Assembly: GCA_020347645.1 (NCBI GenBank)
Contig: CP070736.1
Coordinates: forward strand, 507,385-555,164
Origin: Methanobacteriota archaeon
Lineage (GTDB): Archaea; Thermoplasmatota; Thermoplasmata; UBA10834
DNA length: 47,780 bases
Direction: 5' to 3'
Made by a program: the position numbers and the translations under genes. Below the pieces are notes generated by a model, which worked only from the letters and a program-made list of their open reading frames with translations, was not told the origin of the DNA and made no database searches. Positions 20,686 through 40,110 of the stretch are shown piece by piece (positions within the stretch are counted from its first letter, which is position 1; each line of letters begins with the position of its first letter).

Positions 20686-21807
20686 ATGATGAGATCGCTA
20701 GTCGAAGATGCGCTTGCACGAGAGCCCACGATGGACGTCGGAACCGGCAGTGAAGCCGGGGTCTTCCAGGACCAAAGAGTCGACGCTGAACTCGAACAGA
20801 TACTCCGGGGTCTGAAGACCAACATCAAGATCATCGGGGTAGGAGGAGCTGGTACGAACACGACAGCTCGAATCTTCGACGAGGGGGTTGTCGGAGCAGA
20901 GGTGTACGCCGCCAATACTGACGCTCAACATCTGCTCGTCCTCAGGGTCCCTCACAAGATTCTGCTTGGACGAAGAGTCACACGGGGGCTTGGAGCTGGA
21001 GCGCTACCGCAGGTAGGAGAGGAGGCCGCCAGGGAGGCGGAAGACGATCTAAAGAAGATCCTGGCAGACACCCACATCTGCTTTGTAACATGCGGACTGG
21101 GAGGCGGCACCGGTACCGGAGGAGCGCCCGTAGTGGCCCGCATGGCGAAGGAAATGGGTGCCCTGACAATATCGATTGCCACCGTCCCATTCAGAGGAGA
21201 AGGGCGCATGAGGATGGAGAATGCGGAATGGGGACTCGATCGCCTGAGGGACGCCTCAGATACGGTCATCGTAATACCGAACGACAAACTCCTCGATCTC
21301 GTACCCAGGCTCTCGCTCAATGCGGCCTTCAAGGTAGCGGACGAGGTGCTGATGAGATCGATAAAGGGCCTCACTGAAGTCATCACCCGACCGGGGCTGG
21401 TCAACCTCGATTTCAACGATGTCAAGACTGTTATGAAGGGCGCTGGAGTTGCGATGATGGGGCTGGGCGAGTCCGACGCTCCCGGGGAGGAGCGCATACA
21501 AGAGGCGATCGACCAGGCCATCAACTCGCCGCTGCTTGAAGTGGACATAAGCGAGGCGAACGGAGTACTCGTCGATGTCATAGGAGGCACCGACATGACC
21601 ATCGCTGAGGCGGAAAGGGCCGCTGAGGAGATACAGTCTAGAGTCGGACAGAATGCCCGCATCATATGGGGCGCAGCTGTGGATCCAGCGCTGGACAAGA
21701 CTGTAAAGGTCATGCTTGTCGCCACTGGAGTGAAGTCCAAACAGATCCTCGGCAAGTCGAGCGAACGGCGCTTTAAGGGCACGGGCGAGCTGGAAGTAGT
21801 GCACTGA
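20686..21807 (+). CDS. ftsZ: Cell division protein FtsZ, tandem copy 1
   Basis: The 373-residue product has an N-terminal extension of about 45 residues, then KIIGVGGAGTNTTARI (T1), GLGGGTGTGGAPVVA (GTP-binding loop), and the T7 loop NLDFNDVKTVM. All GTPase residues are present. It is very similar to the next gene and both begin with MxSL(V/I)E-A-L, which indicates a tandem duplication. The location before secE and spt5 is the classic FtsZ1 locus of euryarchaea. The C-terminal tail (GKSSERRFKGTGELEVVH) is short. The ATG at 20686 is followed by a second ATG, and either could be used. Confidence 0.95.
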   Translation: MMRSLVEDALAREPTMDVGTGSEAGVFQDQRVDAELEQILRGLKTNIKIIGVGGAGTNTTARIFDEGVVGAEVYAANTDAQHLLVLRVPHKILLGRRVTRGLGAGALPQVGEEAAREAEDDLKKILADTHICFVTCGLGGGTGTGGAPVVARMAKEMGALTISIATVPFRGEGRMRMENAEWGLDRLRDASDTVIVIPNDKLLDLVPRLSLNAAFKVADEVLMRSIKGLTEVITRPGLVNLDFNDVKTVMKGAGVAMMGLGESDAPGEERIQEAIDQAINSPLLEVDISEANGVLVDVIGGTDMTIAEAERAAEEIQSRVGQNARIIWGAAVDPALDKTVKVMLVATGVKSKQILGKSSERRFKGTGELEVVH

Positions 21808-21933: not shown

Positions 21934-23040
21934 ATGAAATCGCTCATAGAGAGTGCCCTTTCGGATGTCGAGGAGGAACATGTCAAAAAATCCCCCGACG
22001 ATTTCCGGTCCTTCACTGCGGAGGACGAAGAACTGCGGATGATCTTGCAGAACCTGAGGACGAACATTAAGATCATCGGCTGCGGAGGTGGAGGCTGCAA
22101 CACAGTGAACCGTCTCGCCGAGGCCGGAATCGTAGGCGCGGAGCTGTTCGCGGCTAACACAGACGCGCAGCATCTACTGATGACACGTGCTCCACACAAG
22201 ATACTGCTTGGCAAGAGGGTGACCCGCGGACTTGGAGCGGGCGCGCTGCCGCAAGTCGGGGAGGAGGCCGCCAGGGAGGCCGAGGACGAGATTAAAACCG
22301 CGTTGAAAGACTCTGATATCGTGTTCATTACCTGTGGACTCGGGGGCGGAACGGGTACTGGCGCGGCGCCGTTCGTGGCAAAGATGGCGAAGGAAGCCGG
22401 CGCTCTGACGATAGCGATATGCACTTATCCGTTCAAGGCGGAGGGAGTCATCAGGGCTGAGAACGCTGACTGGGGACTCGATCGCCTCAGAGGAGTGGCG
22501 GATACGGTAATTGTCATACCCAACGACAAGCTGATAGACCTCGTCCCAAAACTCTCTCTCAATGCAGCCTTCAAGGTTGCGGACGAGGTGCTCATGAGAT
22601 CCATCAAGGGGATAACTGAGATAGTTACCAAACCTGGCCTGGTAAACCTCGACTTCAACGACATAAAGACTGTCATGAAGTCCGGCGGTGTGGCGATGAT
22701 AGGCCTGGGTGAATCGGATGACGATGACCGCGCGGTGACTGCCGTTACCGAAGCGATCAACTCCCCCCTTATTGAACTCGACGTCAGCGAGGCCACTGCT
22801 GCGCTGGTCAACGTCACTGGGGGCGCGGACATGAGCGTCAAGGAGGCCGAGGAGGTCGCCGAAATAATCCAATCGAAGATCAACGACAATGCTAGGATCA
22901 TCTGGGGTGCGGCAGTAGATGCGTCGCTCGAGGACACGATACGCGTGATGGTAGTCATAACGGGAGTGAAGTCGAAACACATATTCGGCCCATCAAAGGA
23001 TAGGAAGGGGCGCGAGTTGGGACTAGACTTTATAAAGTAG
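21934..23040 (+). CDS. ftsZ: Cell division protein FtsZ, tandem copy 2
   Basis: This 368-residue FtsZ is the second member of the tandem pair. T1 is KIIGCGGGGCNTVNRL, the GTP loop is GLGGGTGTGAAPFVA, and T7 is NLDFNDIKTVM. The core aligns with copy 1 almost without gaps; differences concentrate in the first 45 residues and the C-terminal tail. The 126-nt gap from copy 1 contains CTTTTAAGG near 21830, a possible separate promoter, and a GC-rich hairpin. secE follows after 24 nt, so this copy keeps the ancestral FtsZ1 gene order. Confidence 0.95.
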   Translation: MKSLIESALSDVEEEHVKKSPDDFRSFTAEDEELRMILQNLRTNIKIIGCGGGGCNTVNRLAEAGIVGAELFAANTDAQHLLMTRAPHKILLGKRVTRGLGAGALPQVGEEAAREAEDEIKTALKDSDIVFITCGLGGGTGTGAAPFVAKMAKEAGALTIAICTYPFKAEGVIRAENADWGLDRLRGVADTVIVIPNDKLIDLVPKLSLNAAFKVADEVLMRSIKGITEIVTKPGLVNLDFNDIKTVMKSGGVAMIGLGESDDDDRAVTAVTEAINSPLIELDVSEATAALVNVTGGADMSVKEAEEVAEIIQSKINDNARIIWGAAVDASLEDTIRVMVVITGVKSKHIFGPSKDRKGRELGLDFIK

Positions 23041-30166: not shown

Positions 30167-30254
30167 TGATTCTGGCGATGGGGCTTCACAAGAGGCAACG
30201 AGTATGTTTATATACACTCGCCTCGGTCAGGATTGTTTGCGGAGGACGGAGCGG

Positions 30255-30803
30255 TTGGACGAGGAAAAGACCGCCCTTGAATTGATGGAATTGGAGCAGG
30301 GTCTCTGCTACATCATCAGAGAGCGCAAGCCCTTCCTTGCGTTCGCTCTCTTCGAGAAGGAGGTGTCTCATAGGGGTCTTGCCGGTCTTTGCGTCACACG
30401 GCAGTTCCCAGACAGGCTGAAGGACGCTTTCAGCCTGGGCGATGCTCGCGTTATATGGCTCAGTCATACACCGGGATCGGATCATCACAACCCCACGAGT
30501 ATCGGCACATTGGCTACGATAATATCCTCATTCATAGAAAGATACGAGAGATGCACTGTAATCATCGACGGGCTTGAGTATCTGGTCATAAACAACGGTT
30601 TCCAGCAGGTCTTGAGATTCCTGGAGCATGTGAACGAACAGGTGATGCAGAGCAAATCTACGGTCCTCGTTCCAATTAGTCCGGACGCTTTCAGCGAGAA
30701 GGAATTGGCGTTAATGGAGCGCAATGTGGAGACCGTGGAACAGCCAGCGATGAGCGTCGCACTGGAGAAGGACCTGACCAGCCTGATCGACCAGTACCGT
30801 TGA
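30255..30803 (+). CDS. DUF835 domain protein
   Basis: The 182-residue product matches the DUF835 pattern: YIIRERKPFLAFALFEKEVSHRGLAGLCVTRQFP, then VIWLSHTPG, a TLATIISSFIERYERCTVIIDGLEYLVINNGFQQVLRFL segment and a final strand STVLVPISPDAFSEKELALMER. DUF835 proteins resemble KaiC/RecA-like folds without a clear P-loop and are common in Thermoplasmatota; their role is unknown. I place the start at the TTG 30255 after GGAGG. Upstream in-frame ATG 30204 overlaps the TATA-like TTTATATA (30206-30213), so that part is promoter. Confidence 0.8.
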   Translation: MDEEKTALELMELEQGLCYIIRERKPFLAFALFEKEVSHRGLAGLCVTRQFPDRLKDAFSLGDARVIWLSHTPGSDHHNPTSIGTLATIISSFIERYERCTVIIDGLEYLVINNGFQQVLRFLEHVNEQVMQSKSTVLVPISPDAFSEKELALMERNVETVEQPAMSVALEKDLTSLIDQYR

Positions 30804-35536: not shown

Positions 35537-36013
35537 GTGAAGATAAGGCTGGCGCGGCTAGACGACCTTCCTGAAGTGATGAAGATCGAGAACGCCTGCT
35601 TCGGGCAGGAGCGGTTCGATGTGAACATTGTCCGCGCCTTGCTAACACGTAGAAATTCGTTCACGCTTGTGGCAGAAGAATGCCGAGAGACTGTCGGCGC
35701 AGCGATGTGCAGCTGCTCCGTACGATCTGCCCACGGGAGGATAGCCTCTGTCGCGGTGTTGCCCGAGCACCGCAACATGGGAGTAGGCTCGAAGCTGATC
35801 ACGGCCTGCGAAGAGGAATTCCGCAGGAGGGGCGTCACTAGGTTCACCCTCGAGGTGGCCGTGGACAACGCAACAGCCGTTAGGACTTACCTGGCCAACG
35901 GGTACCGAATAGTGAGCGAGATCAGCGATTACTACTCGCGAGGAAGGAGCGCATACAACATGGAAAAAGACGTCACCATGGAAGGGAGAAGGACGAAAGT
36001 CAGAGTCTCCTGA
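35537..36013 (+). CDS. rimI: GNAT N-acetyltransferase (RimI/Ard1-like)
   Basis: The 158-residue product is a single GNAT domain with the acetyl-CoA loop VLPEHRNMGVGSKLI (R-x2-G-x-G type, about residue 77-90), preceded by IASVAV and followed by FTLEVAVDNATAVRTYLANGYRIV. It fits archaeal N-terminal protein acetyltransferases of the Ard1/RimI family. GTG at 35537 is a likely start; a TTG lies 6 nt before. Its end overlaps the convergent ileS gene by 14 nt. Confidence 0.87.
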   Translation: MKIRLARLDDLPEVMKIENACFGQERFDVNIVRALLTRRNSFTLVAEECRETVGAAMCSCSVRSAHGRIASVAVLPEHRNMGVGSKLITACEEEFRRRGVTRFTLEVAVDNATAVRTYLANGYRIVSEISDYYSRGRSAYNMEKDVTMEGRRTKVRVS

Positions 36014-39000
36014 TTGACACCTCGAACGGCATCTTGTTGATCTTCCACAGCTTGCCATCCTCGACGGCGGTTTTGGACGTAAGACTGTTGGCGTTTGTGT
36101 CCCTCAGGATGTTCTTTTCATAGGCGGATATCGCGTTCTCTATCTCTGGATGGGCGGAGTAGTCGATCGCAATTGGCTCGCCGAAATCGAGTTTCAGTTC
36201 CTTCCTCATATGCTGTATGCGTCTCACGACCTCTCTCGACAGCCCCTCCAATTTGAGTTTGGAGCGTACGGAAGTGGAAACGTACACATGGACGGAGCCG
36301 ATGCTAGCGTGAGAATACCCTGCCTTCTCCCTCTCAGAGACTATGACATCCTCCTCAAAGATATCGAAACCGCCCAATCGAATCTTACCCGAGGCGGCAA
36401 GATGCCGTGCCATCTGACCGCCATCAACCTTCTCCATCAACCTCGCGACCTCGGCGGCGGACTCCTTGAGGCGAGGGCCCAGCGATCGCAGGTTCGGTGA
36501 GAGTGCATACTCTATCATCGGCTCTCTCGATTCGATGCATTCCACGTGCTTGACATTTAGTTCGTCCGCTATCATCCGCTCGTAGCGTCTCAATACCCAC
36601 ATGCCGTCTTGGCCGGCAGCTATGATCACCTCGTCCAACGGCTGTCTCAGCTTTATACCAGCCTTCTGACGCGCGAGACGGCCGGCCTCTACTGCCTGAC
36701 GGACTTGGGACATCTGCGATTCTAGGGCGTGATTTACGGCGCTATCGTCCGTCAGGGGATAATCCTCTAGATGCACGCTTTCGAGCGGACCATGAAGGTT
36801 CTTGTACAGTCTCTCTGCAAGGAAGGGTGTTACTGGCGCCATGACTATGGATATCGTCGTCAGGCATTCGTGCAATGTGCTGAAAGCCGAGAAACGGTCC
36901 TCCGGGTCGCCTTCCTGAAGGAACCTTCTTCGAGAACGGCGCAGATACCAGTTGCTCAGATCGTCTACGAATCCCACGAGTGCTCGGCCCGCCCTGTGAA
37001 CCTCGAGCGTTTCAAACGCTCTTCTAGATTCAGATACCGTGCTGTTGAGGCGTGAGAGAATCCATCTGTCCAAGTCGTGGGTCTTCCTGGGTAGCGACTC
37101 GCCTCTGAATCCAGCACGATTTGAATTGGCGGCGAAGTACGAATAGACGTTCAACAGAGTGGTCAATGTCCGGACCATCGATGTCCGGACTTTCTCCTGA
37201 GAGAACTCCACCTCCTGCCACACGGGGGAACTGAGGATGTACAGTCTGGACGCGTCAGCGCCAATCGATGAGAATACTTCATCAGGGTAGATTTCGGCAA
37301 GGTCGTCGGCTCCAATCCTCCCCCCCTTTTCAGCGAAGACCTTCCCCATGACTAACACGGATTTGAACGCGGGTGAATTGAATAGCAGGGTGGCCAGGAC
37401 GTGCTGGGTGTAGAACCATCCTCGCGTCTGATCCGCAGACTCGCTTATGAAGTCTACCGCGCGATGCACGTCGAACTCCTCCATATTTTCGAACGGGTAA
37501 TGGTACTGCGCGAACGGGGCACATCCCGAATCGAACCAACAATCCAGCACGTACTCCTCCCGCGTCATGGGAGATTCGCACTCTGGGCATTGCAGCCTTA
37601 TTGCGTCCACGAACGGTCTATGCAGATCTAGGTCATCGGGGACCGTTCCGAGCGCATGCTGTTTGAGTTCGGCTATGCTGCCTACACAAAGCTCGTGACC
37701 CGAAGGACACCTCCACATAGGCAAAGGGGTGCCCCAGTATCTAGCACGGCTGACGACCCAATCCTTCGCTTCCGTTATGAAGTCGCCGAATCGTCCGCGT
37801 TTGTACGTGTCCGGAATCCATCGCACCTGCTCGTTCATCTCACGCATCCTGTCGCGGACCTCCTTGACAGAAATAACCCATGCATCCATAGGCCTGTAGA
37901 TCAGAGGCGTGTCGCACCTCCAGCAGAACGGATACGAATGGCGGATAAGCTCCCAACTGAACAAGCTGCCTGACGTCTCGAGCAAGCGGATAATCTCTGC
38001 GTCGGAGTCGCCCGCTACGCGCCCCTGCAACTCTGGGACTCCGCTTGTGAACCTGCCGAAATCGTCCACTGGGTCGAAGACTTCGCTCCCCTTTTCGAGG
38101 GCTATGTCATAGTCGACGGTTGCGTATGCCGGAGATATCTGTACGACTCCAGTTCCTTCCAGCTCAGGGATTTCGTCGGAGTGTATCACCTTGAAGGCAT
38201 CGCCTCCGTGTTTCACGAAATCGAACAACGGCTCATACTCCTTTCCTACGAGCGTTTCGCCTGCGTAGGTATCGATGATCTTCGCCTCTGGGAAAAGCCG
38301 AGAAGCGTGGCTGCGTCCCAAGATAAACTTCTCCCCTCTGACCTCCACTGTCGCGTATTCCCAGTCCTTGCGCACAGCAAGGAATGTGTTGGCTACCAGA
38401 GTCCAAGGACTTGCAGTGTATGACAAGATATTGACGTCCGCGTCCCTTACTCTGAACCGTGCCATCACGCCCCTGTCTTCGGTCTCCTTGAATCCGAGCG
38501 CTACCTCGTGGCTGCTGAGAGTCGTTCCGCATCGATAACAGTAGGCCGCCACGTGGCGACCTTTCGTCAGCATTCCTTTAGAATGGAGCTTCTTAATCGC
38601 CCACCAGACGCTCTCGATGTACTCGTTAGACATAGTCAAGTAGGCGTTTTCGTAGTCCAGCCAATACCCGATCCTATGGCTCATCTCCTCCCACTCGGCT
38701 TTGAAACGAACCACTCTCTCCCTGCACAATGCGTTGAAACGATCTATTCCAAGCGATTCTATGTCCGCCTTGGATTCCAGCCCGAGAGCTTTCTCGACTT
38801 CGATCTCCACCGGGAGTCCGTGACAATCCCAGCCAGCAATGTAGGGGATCACCTTGCCACCATTCATGACCTTATAGCGCAGACACGCGTCCTTTACAGC
38901 GCGAGAGAGGGCATCGCCCGTGTGAGGACGGTCCTTCGTTGTAGGCGGCCCTTCGCAGAAGACGAAAGGCTTGCCCGCAACCATGCGCTCGACCGTCTTT

Positions 39001-39092
39001 CGTAGCATGTCACGGTCCTGCCAGTAGGATAGGACCTCCTCCTCTAGCTTGGGGAATGTCTCCCCGGCAGGTTCCCGATAGTACCTCTTCAT
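36000..39092 (-). CDS. ileS: Isoleucyl-tRNA synthetase-like protein lacking HIGH and KMSKS
   Basis: By length (1030 residues) and by many landmarks this is IleS: GWDCHGLPVEIEVEKALG, the RCGTTLSSHEVALGF zinc region, the CP1 editing domain with SYTASPWTLVANTFLAV, DCWFDSGCAPFAQYHYPFE, and a full anticodon-binding domain (WILSRLNSTVSESRRAFE...NWYLRRSRRRFL). The class I signatures are altered. HIGH is HTGD (PPTTKDRPHTGDAL, about residue 58), and the KMSKS site reads GRIGADD (after VFAEKGG). The frame there is intact, so these are substitutions, not frameshifts. It may be a degenerate or repurposed paralogue, or an unusual active IleS. Confidence 0.85.
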   Translation of the reverse strand: MKRYYREPAGETFPKLEEEVLSYWQDRDMLRKTVERMVAGKPFVFCEGPPTTKDRPHTGDALSRAVKDACLRYKVMNGGKVIPYIAGWDCHGLPVEIEVEKALGLESKADIESLGIDRFNALCRERVVRFKAEWEEMSHRIGYWLDYENAYLTMSNEYIESVWWAIKKLHSKGMLTKGRHVAAYCYRCGTTLSSHEVALGFKETEDRGVMARFRVRDADVNILSYTASPWTLVANTFLAVRKDWEYATVEVRGEKFILGRSHASRLFPEAKIIDTYAGETLVGKEYEPLFDFVKHGGDAFKVIHSDEIPELEGTGVVQISPAYATVDYDIALEKGSEVFDPVDDFGRFTSGVPELQGRVAGDSDAEIIRLLETSGSLFSWELIRHSYPFCWRCDTPLIYRPMDAWVISVKEVRDRMREMNEQVRWIPDTYKRGRFGDFITEAKDWVVSRARYWGTPLPMWRCPSGHELCVGSIAELKQHALGTVPDDLDLHRPFVDAIRLQCPECESPMTREEYVLDCWFDSGCAPFAQYHYPFENMEEFDVHRAVDFISESADQTRGWFYTQHVLATLLFNSPAFKSVLVMGKVFAEKGGRIGADDLAEIYPDEVFSSIGADASRLYILSSPVWQEVEFSQEKVRTSMVRTLTTLLNVYSYFAANSNRAGFRGESLPRKTHDLDRWILSRLNSTVSESRRAFETLEVHRAGRALVGFVDDLSNWYLRRSRRRFLQEGDPEDRFSAFSTLHECLTTISIVMAPVTPFLAERLYKNLHGPLESVHLEDYPLTDDSAVNHALESQMSQVRQAVEAGRLARQKAGIKLRQPLDEVIIAAGQDGMWVLRRYERMIADELNVKHVECIESREPMIEYALSPNLRSLGPRLKESAAEVARLMEKVDGGQMARHLAASGKIRLGGFDIFEEDVIVSEREKAGYSHASIGSVHVYVSTSVRSKLKLEGLSREVVRRIQHMRKELKLDFGEPIAIDYSAHPEIENAISAYEKNILRDTNANSLTSKTAVEDGKLWKINKMPFEVSIRRL

Positions 39093-39450
39093 ATCCGTGA
39101 CTCTCCAAAATGGATATCCACACTACTCGGCAATGGGAATGCTACAATCAGCTAATGATAGCTATAATGAACGTGGTTGCCGAGTTCATCGAAACGATTG
39201 CAGCGTCAGGATTGTATATAATACTTGGCCGAAAGACTCCGCTCTGTCCAATCAGAAGCGTTCAAATGAGGGCTTGCGGAGACCTGGCTGCCCAGAACCG
39301 AAAGGTCCATTTGGGCGGCGATAATGCGTTCAAGACTGCGCCTGAGAGCCTGTTCAGTCCAGGAAAGTAATAAATAATAGCGCACACATAGCGCGGCACC
39401 GTGCATACCATGGCCAGGGTGGGTGCCCAGGGCCGATGGGGTGAACACGA
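39093..39450. other. Intergenic region with an orphan strong TATA box
   Basis: The ileS promoter is probably near 39170 on the minus strand (CATTATAGC). On the plus strand TATATAATA (39215-39223) would start transcription near 39245. The transcript would contain a 34-codon frame (39268-39372) without a ribosome-binding site. A second box AATAAATAATA (39367-39377) serves the small gene at 39451. Confidence 0.4.
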
Positions 39451-39621
39451 ATGGAAGAACCCTTGTGCAACGTGGAGTTTCTGAAGAGCAGCGCCGCCTA
39501 CGTGGCGAGAGTCCAAAGTGACCTAGGCGGAATGCGCGAGTACCGAAGCACCAGTCTCGAGGAGATTCTGGAACAGGTCATCATCGATCTGCAAGAGGAG
39601 TTCGAAGGAGCACGACTCTGA
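39451..39621 (+). CDS. Small conserved-looking protein of unknown function (56 residues)
   Basis: The ATG follows GGGGTGA by 6 nt, and a TATA-like AATAAATAATA lies about 80 nt upstream. The product (starting MEEPLCNVEFLKSSAAYVAR) is acidic and helical, with EEILEQVIIDLQEEFEGARL at the end. Composition and signals look like a real gene. I do not recognise the family. It might be a small regulator or subunit. Confidence 0.65.
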   Translation: MEEPLCNVEFLKSSAAYVARVQSDLGGMREYRSTSLEEILEQVIIDLQEEFEGARL

Positions 39622-39762
39622 ACCGGGTGCGAATACCTTGGCGGAAAGCACAGGGATCTATGCCGATGCTTCCAGGCACGCCCATGTTCATCCGTAGGTT
39701 TTGGGGCATCACCGCAAGCCAAACCATTGCTGGACCCATACCATACGATAGGGGGCGTTTCC

Positions 39763-40110
39763 GTGGAAGAGAAGGACAAGAAGGAGTATGAAGAGGTCAT
39801 ATCGTCGTACTATGGCGAGGATCAGGTCACTGCCCTTGTCACATTCAAAATCGACACAAAGGGCTCGGACGATGTCGCCGGTAAGATTGCTGAAAGTGGC
39901 AATATCGAGGATGTCTTCCTTGTAACGGGAGACACGGACATCATCGCCAAAGCTAGATTTCCCAACTACGCCGCACTCAAGAAGTTTATTGTTGATGAGG
40001 TGGCGGAGATTCCCGGAATAAAGGAAACCAGGACTTTCATGGTTGTAACGACCTTCAAAGAGAAGGGGCGGATCATCAGAGACGCCGACGAAGATGAATC
40101 GAAGGAGTAG
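39763..40110 (+). CDS. Stand-alone Lrp/AsnC ligand-binding (RAM) domain protein
   Basis: The product of about 115 residues matches the RAM domain of Lrp/AsnC regulators: VTALVTFKIDTKGSDDVAGKIAE, GNIEDVFLVTGDTDIIAKARF and LKKFIVDEVAEIPGIKETRTFMVV. There is no helix-turn-helix, so it cannot bind DNA alone in the usual way. Such single-domain proteins bind amino acids or partner with full-length Lrp proteins. The GTG at 39763 follows GGGGGCG. It is followed by a UPF0147 gene. Confidence 0.85.
   Translation: MEEKDKKEYEEVISSYYGEDQVTALVTFKIDTKGSDDVAGKIAESGNIEDVFLVTGDTDIIAKARFPNYAALKKFIVDEVAEIPGIKETRTFMVVTTFKEKGRIIRDADEDESKE

Follow-up and report, generated by a model that had tools for sequence, protein, structure and literature searches.

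We analysed a 47,780-nucleotide stretch (the window) of the genome of an archaeon of the Thermoplasmata (lineage UBA10834; GenBank GCA_020347645.1, contig CP070736.1), a genome that consists of one 1.42-Mb contig and is listed as 65% complete. The window carries P0001, a gene for a full-length isoleucyl-tRNA synthetase (IleRS) of the bacterial and eukaryal 'type 2' kind, preceded by a TATA box and a short upstream open reading frame (uORF) that contains a run of isoleucine codons (Table 1). The initial annotation had recognized the IleRS-like reading frame and the in-frame replacement of both class I signatures, and both observations stand: P0001 has HTGD where active enzymes have HxGH (HxGT in the long archaeal form) and GRIGADD in place of KMSKS. 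The leader peptide, a second IleRS gene and the reciprocal pattern in other families, described below, had not been noticed in that reading.

By sequence, P0001 belongs to the IleRS family (765 bits against the TIGR00392 ileS model, cut-off 621), with the domains tRNA-synt_1, Anticodon_1 and DUF5915. Its nearest solved structure, both by sequence and by fold, is IleRS2 of Priestia megaterium (PDB 8c8v), with which it shares the fold and the full domain order (predicted model with a predicted local distance difference test (pLDDT) score of 89; template modelling (TM) score 0.93; 37% identity). The P. megaterium enzyme keeps HVGH and KMSKS, whereas P0001 has both changed and an eroded editing site. 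The zinc-ligand cysteines, the anticodon domain and the C-terminal domain are kept.

An orthologue is present in all 19 genomes of the family (f1), five of them as pieces at contig edges, and these copies form a single clade within the type-2 branch (support 100, from a quick method with the Shimodaira–Hasegawa-like approximate likelihood ratio test only, after 6 of 72 rows, fragments and ValRS, had been dropped). KMSKS is absent from every family copy that is readable there (16/16), and relatives at 55–78% identity show the same kind of motif loss, which excludes a reading error at the motifs. Among 14 family copies the variability of the loop reaches the 99th percentile, and in the P0001 model its block (mean pLDDT 62) is among the two least certain blocks of ten residues. 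Of the 18 copies readable at the HIGH position, seven have HxGH and nine carry D or N as the fourth residue; the other two read HMAH and RVGH. Because all 23 intact long archaeal copies compared have HxGT, the fourth residue is not diagnostic by itself. Judged from these alignments, the informative change is that KMSKS has gone; the change in HIGH alone is weak evidence.

The initial annotation had described the editing, zinc and anticodon domains as intact. This holds for the zinc cysteines and the anticodon domain; the CP1 editing domain has persisted with an eroded active site. Among 14 full f1 copies, W225 is kept in 4, T227 in 1, T228 in 5, H318 in 3, A320 in none and G324 in 4, and T226, N235 and D327 are invariant. 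P49, P50, D89, W519, E551, D554, Q555 and W559, which correspond to the isoleucine and ribose pocket of Thermus IleRS, are kept at all eight positions in the same 14 copies. Thus the paralogue would have been released from ATP chemistry and proofreading and held to amino-acid and tRNA binding, because KMSKS and the editing site are lost while the pocket and anticodon sites are kept.

The protein might nevertheless be an active, divergent synthetase that binds ATP without the KMSKS lysines and, as an inducible copy, charges tRNA-Ile under stress. The intact predicted fold, the first His of HIGH (kept in 17 of the 18 readable copies) and the normality of HxGT in the long archaeal enzyme would fit such an enzyme, as would the tolerance of IleRS2 for altered HIGH motifs (PMC10485003, in the part available) and the occurrence of this leader before type-2 genes whose motifs are intact. 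We consider this unlikely, given the family-wide loss of KMSKS from a highly variable loop with no fixed alternative in its place and the parallel decay of the editing site. Editing in trans, in which the protein would be a free-standing deacylase of mischarged Val-tRNA-Ile, had been offered in the initial annotation as an example. Although the CP1 domain persists with three invariant residues, most of the other editing residues are gone, CP1 retains a smaller share of the sites invariant in active enzymes than any other domain (see below) and the long IleRS of the same genome retains its own editing motifs; we regard this role as very unlikely.

That long IleRS also bears on whether P0001 could be a degenerate sole copy, which the initial annotation had thought would be surprising. 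It is not the sole copy: elsewhere in the genome lies a canonical long IleRS of 1,313 amino acids, 33–35% identical to P0001, with HVGT, AMSKS and a C-terminal DUF835 domain, which a review counts among the output domains of archaeal response regulators and calls inactivated-KaiC-like (PMC5847659, in part). The second IleRS and the family-wide loss of KMSKS support the alternative, also raised initially, of a paralogue freed from aminoacylation.

The paralogue shows the marks of continued constraint. Ratios of non-synonymous to synonymous substitution rates (dN/dS), computed for 36 pairs among nine genomes, are 0.07–0.28 in 33 pairs (3 undefined), compared with 0.04–0.23 for the active long copy (1 pair undefined); in the one clearly unsaturated pair (dS 0.34) the ratios are 0.16 and 0.13, respectively. 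Using as a baseline 192 sites that are invariant across 15 active type-2 enzymes, mean retention in the paralogue is 86%: highest in the anticodon part (94%), then the first two Rossmann parts (91% and 90%), and lower in the KMSKS part (75%) and CP1 (72%). Another 36 sites are fixed in the family yet rare among active enzymes. At each of the 12 family loci examined the paralogue retains the same neighbours within the limits of the available sequence: it is flanked on one side by orc1, a DUF835 protein, gcvT, M42 and M20 peptidases, asnS and rimI, and on the other by an Lrp-like ligand domain, a small helical protein and dph6. A functionless relic in slow decay would explain why motif loss is progressive across the family and why amino-acid divergence is faster than in the active copy in most pairs; we find it highly improbable for a gene that is present in every family genome with an open frame, low dN/dS, fixed synteny and a conserved promoter and leader. 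On these comparisons, the paralogue is kept by purifying selection, and is neither a sequencing error nor a dying pseudogene.

The region upstream of the paralogue is conserved across the family. It contains a uORF of 9–17 codons in which several isoleucine codons cluster shortly before the stop, encoding MNSATTFIIAIIS in the window and, for example, MNSAANSLIIIIG, MSPAAQRVIIIIS, MNWAFEGIIIPE, MSWAADKEEIAIIIIIR, MSSGNGIIIIR and MSSDTIIIR elsewhere. Under a loose rule such a uORF occurs at 33 of 37 type-2-like loci of f1, f7, f12, f22 and f19, compared with 6 of 413 control open reading frames; a strict rule, requiring III among the final seven residues, passes 24 of the 33 and 0 of 413 controls, with the window peptide (IIAII) passing the loose rule alone. 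Three of the four remaining loci are cut by contig ends and the fourth, in G109, lacks the uORF. The isoleucine codons are mixed (ATT 47, ATA 45, ATC 41). Both dead and live type-2 ileS genes carry the leader; it was not seen before the type-2 ileS of f4, f10, f14, f17, f18, f25, f26 and f28, nor before long ileS copies. In f19 (loci L290, L291, L292 and L295) the uORF precedes a bacterial-type ileS with GVHH, which in G043, the genome checked, accompanies a long ileS that looks live. The isoleucine run of this uORF (MSSCTIIIIIGR) is found in three loci and is shorter in G162 (MSLITTIISKGH). The leader is therefore associated with second ileS genes from another branch as well.

A stem, P1, pairs codons 1–6 of the uORF with sequence past its stop. 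On an alignment of 33 leaders (A5), 89% of cells are paired, compared with 29–51% when the strands are slid by one to three columns. Two-sided changes number 27, compared with 11.7 in shuffles (reached in 0 of 500), although the structure was named after the leaders had been inspected and its 5′ strand is also coding. One pair is C–G in 14 rows and G–C in 13, and another occurs as A–U, G–C, G–U and C–G; a measure of further pair types was not above shuffles (238/500). Taken singly, most stems beat nearly all versions with a shuffled 3′ part and several do not (G010, 0.53; G131, 0.32; G030, 0.25). The leader thus has the short uORF, the run of cognate codons and the conserved base pairing involving the uORF that characterize leader-peptide attenuators.

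A strong TATA box (at least 6 of 8 matches) is present in 37 of 42 leaders, and its centre lies 24–30 bp before the uORF AUG in all 37 (shuffles: mean 3.5, maximum 11). As this is the usual archaeal spacing between TATA box and transcription start, transcription would begin at or near the AUG, and translation of the leader peptide would be leaderless. A U-rich tract after the stem is found mainly in f7 leaders and is not evident in f1; transcription termination there is possible in f7, and the case for it in f1 is weak.

A covariance model, R1, gave its sole strong match at this element in 18 of 19 family genomes, the miss (G017) being cut at a contig end, with five weak matches elsewhere (E-values of 0.1–0.6); it also scores before the active type-2 ileS in f7 and, more weakly, f12, and does not score before long ileS. 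Model R2 matched 44 of 300 genomes of the class, once each. Eleven of these lay outside its building set; ten of the eleven matches stand directly before ileS, nine of them with an isoleucine-containing uORF, and the match in G042 does not precede ileS. A phylum-wide search matched 6 of 389 genomes, all within the class. We also considered tRNA mimicry of the thrS kind, because CUCGGC and CUGAU in the leader also occur in the anticodon arm of tRNA-Ile, and rejected it: CUGAU turned out to span the stop of the uORF (AGC UGA), and CUCGGC is not maintained in f7.

The relationship between the two IleRS genes is reversed in other families. Among the genomes with two copies, exactly one copy bears KMSKS in 41 of 41, a count over chosen loci rather than every genome, with both copies readable at KMSKS and a missing catalytic core scored as lost. 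In f1 the long copy is intact and the type-2 copy dead (14/14), whereas in f4, f7, f12, f14, f17, f25, f26 and f28 the type-2 copy is intact and the long copy dead (27/27). The dead long copies range from one that keeps HIGH (f25) to those whose catalytic core is barely or not detectable: that of f14 (L173:887–3937, plus strand) keeps Anticodon_1, DUF5915, HhH, a zinc ribbon and DUF835, and that of f26 (L176:2192–5041, minus strand) keeps Anticodon_1 and DUF5915 with a weak zinc-ribbon match and a weak trace of tRNA-synt_1. The exception, f19, is not among the 41; there, a third type of copy with GVHH and MHRS accompanies a long copy that looks live, and GXHH is a functional HIGH variant in bacterial IleRS2 (PMC10485003, in part). 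In-frame TAG codons were reported in the matches to the type-2 ileS of G035 (L027) and G121 (L097) and to the long-copy remnant of G074 (L210), and may reflect either UAG readthrough or an upstream stop.

An obligate complex of a dead and an active IleRS that needs one active site would account for catalytic loss falling on one copy in some families and on the other elsewhere, and the single KMSKS per genome fits it. However, single-copy families exist in both directions and the two dead types are unlike each other, the long copies of f14 and f26 having lost most of the core while keeping Anticodon_1–DUF5915 (and DUF835 in f14), and we consider such a complex very improbable.

P0001 is probably a type-2 IleRS paralogue that no longer aminoacylates and is maintained by selection as a tRNA-Ile- or isoleucine-binding protein made on demand, with housekeeping charging left to the IleRS–DUF835 enzyme. 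When charged tRNA-Ile is scarce, ribosomes would stall on the isoleucine run of the leader, prevent P1 from forming and so allow the gene to be expressed; the product may then bind free tRNA-Ile, isoleucine or both, or isoleucyl-adenylate-like inhibitors, without charging tRNA. Domain conservation favours tRNA binding. The product could act as a sensor, a buffer or a decoy. Type-2 IleRS has been linked to mupirocin resistance (PMC10485003 and PMC9437257, both in part), which, together with the inducible leader, suggests that the gene originally supplied a reserve enzyme able to resist inhibitors; from such an origin one may speculate that the dead copy acts as a decoy. For the Thermoplasmata more widely, we think it likely that a second, type-2 ileS came under a leaderless isoleucine-run attenuator, with this gene becoming a non-charging binder in one family and the IleRS–DUF835 copy dying in eight.

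Several observations weigh against this interpretation. The seven HxGH copies, together with K/R-rich KMSKS loops in some family members, make residual activation possible. Conservation of the pocket is only mildly diagnostic, because full retention across the 14 full copies is common among the 192 invariant sites (139 of them). Most dS values are saturated, and in G018 the leader has degenerated and lost its uORF start. When the leaders were folded with a mask for the stalled ribosome, accessibility of the Shine–Dalgarno sequence hardly changed in f1 (0.34 to 0.37) and fell in f7 (0.45 to 0.23), so simple unmasking of this site by a stalled ribosome is not supported.

Precedents exist both for synthetase paralogues that have died or been reassigned and for leader-peptide attenuators in bacteria. 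HisZ derives from HisRS and SLIMP from SerRS, both class II enzymes. Like P0001, they are non-charging paralogues reused as regulators or partners, although their partners differ and the available part of the source does not mention control by tRNA starvation (PMC9437257). LeuRS-I of the Sulfolobaceae, according to the same partial text, is likewise an archaeal class I paralogue that stands beside a canonical copy, has a disrupted editing domain and does not aminoacylate; unlike P0001, which has lost KMSKS itself, it still makes leucyl-adenylate, and that text mentions no leader peptide (PMC9437257). The bacterial attenuators of amino-acid and synthetase operons share the short uORF, the run of cognate codons and the base-paired element before the gene (PMC4833913, in part), whereas the leader of P0001 is archaeal, is predicted to start transcription at the uORF AUG and precedes an apparently dead synthetase.

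Archaeal coupling of transcription and translation, together with leaderless initiation, makes attenuation by a codon run plausible, and we know of no example in archaea. Our literature search, outside which most subscription journals lay, did not find this combination, its archaeal setting or the pattern in which either copy can die; it returned nothing on dead IleRS paralogues in Thermoplasmata and, among the papers listed, only bacterial or general work on leader-peptide attenuation. If the interpretation is correct, archaea gain a codon-run attenuator, and two IleRS genes swap which copy is alive. The families would form a natural gradient, running from intact copies to fully decayed ones, of a synthetase that gives up charging under continued selection, and the sister families would be the reverse experiment, opening the retained function of a dead synthetase to comparative search.

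Table 1 Features of the P0001 locus and other genes mentioned, in window coordinates
Feature	Positions	Strand	Remarks
P0001, IleRS type-2-like paralogue	36000–39092	−	Open reading frame, 1,030 amino acids; lacks KMSKS and the fourth HIGH residue
HIGH position	38913–38924	−	HTGD, residues 57–60
Editing-site Thr-rich strand	38388–38420	−	YTASPWTLVAN, residues 225–235; eroded
Editing-site loop	38112–38141	−	Residues 318–327; catalytic-region His to Gln
Part of isoleucine/ribose pocket	37416–37442	−	ESADQTRGW; E551, D554, Q555 and W559 invariant, 14/14
KMSKS position	37302–37322	−	GRIGADD, residues 591–597
Shine–Dalgarno-like sequence	39103–39106	−	GGAG, before ileS start
Stem P1, 3′ strand	39125–39133	−	TTGCCGAGT, after uORF stop
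Leader peptide uORF	39148–39189	−	MNSATTFIIAIIS*
Stem P1, 5′ strand	39177–39185	−	ACTCGGCAA, inside uORF
TATA box	39215–39222	−	ATTATATA, centre 29 bp upstream of uORF AUG
FtsZ-like gene, first	20686–21807	+	By eye
FtsZ-like gene, second	21934–23040	+	By eye
Stand-alone DUF835 protein	30204–30803	+	In conserved gene block
Small protein	39451–39621	+	56 amino acids, MEEPLCNVEFLKSS...
Lrp/AsnC-like ligand-binding domain	39727–40110	+	No obvious DNA-binding part

Among the neighbours, the stand-alone DUF835 protein carries the same domain that is fused to the canonical IleRS, and the Lrp/AsnC-like gene adjoins the ileS paralogue across the family. The small protein, encoded divergently from the paralogue, is conserved in ten family genomes, with a well conserved stretch upstream of its ATG. 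The ValRS of the window genome (L003:1465–4083, plus strand) has PMHASSGN at the place of KMSKS. The tRNA set looked ordinary: of 32 matches, 30 were scanned and 26 of these decoded, and tRNA-Ile(GAT) occurred once. An Rfam search of the window matched tRNA-Gly alone and a PHROGs search one unnamed family. Two adjacent genes elsewhere in the window resemble FtsZ paralogues.

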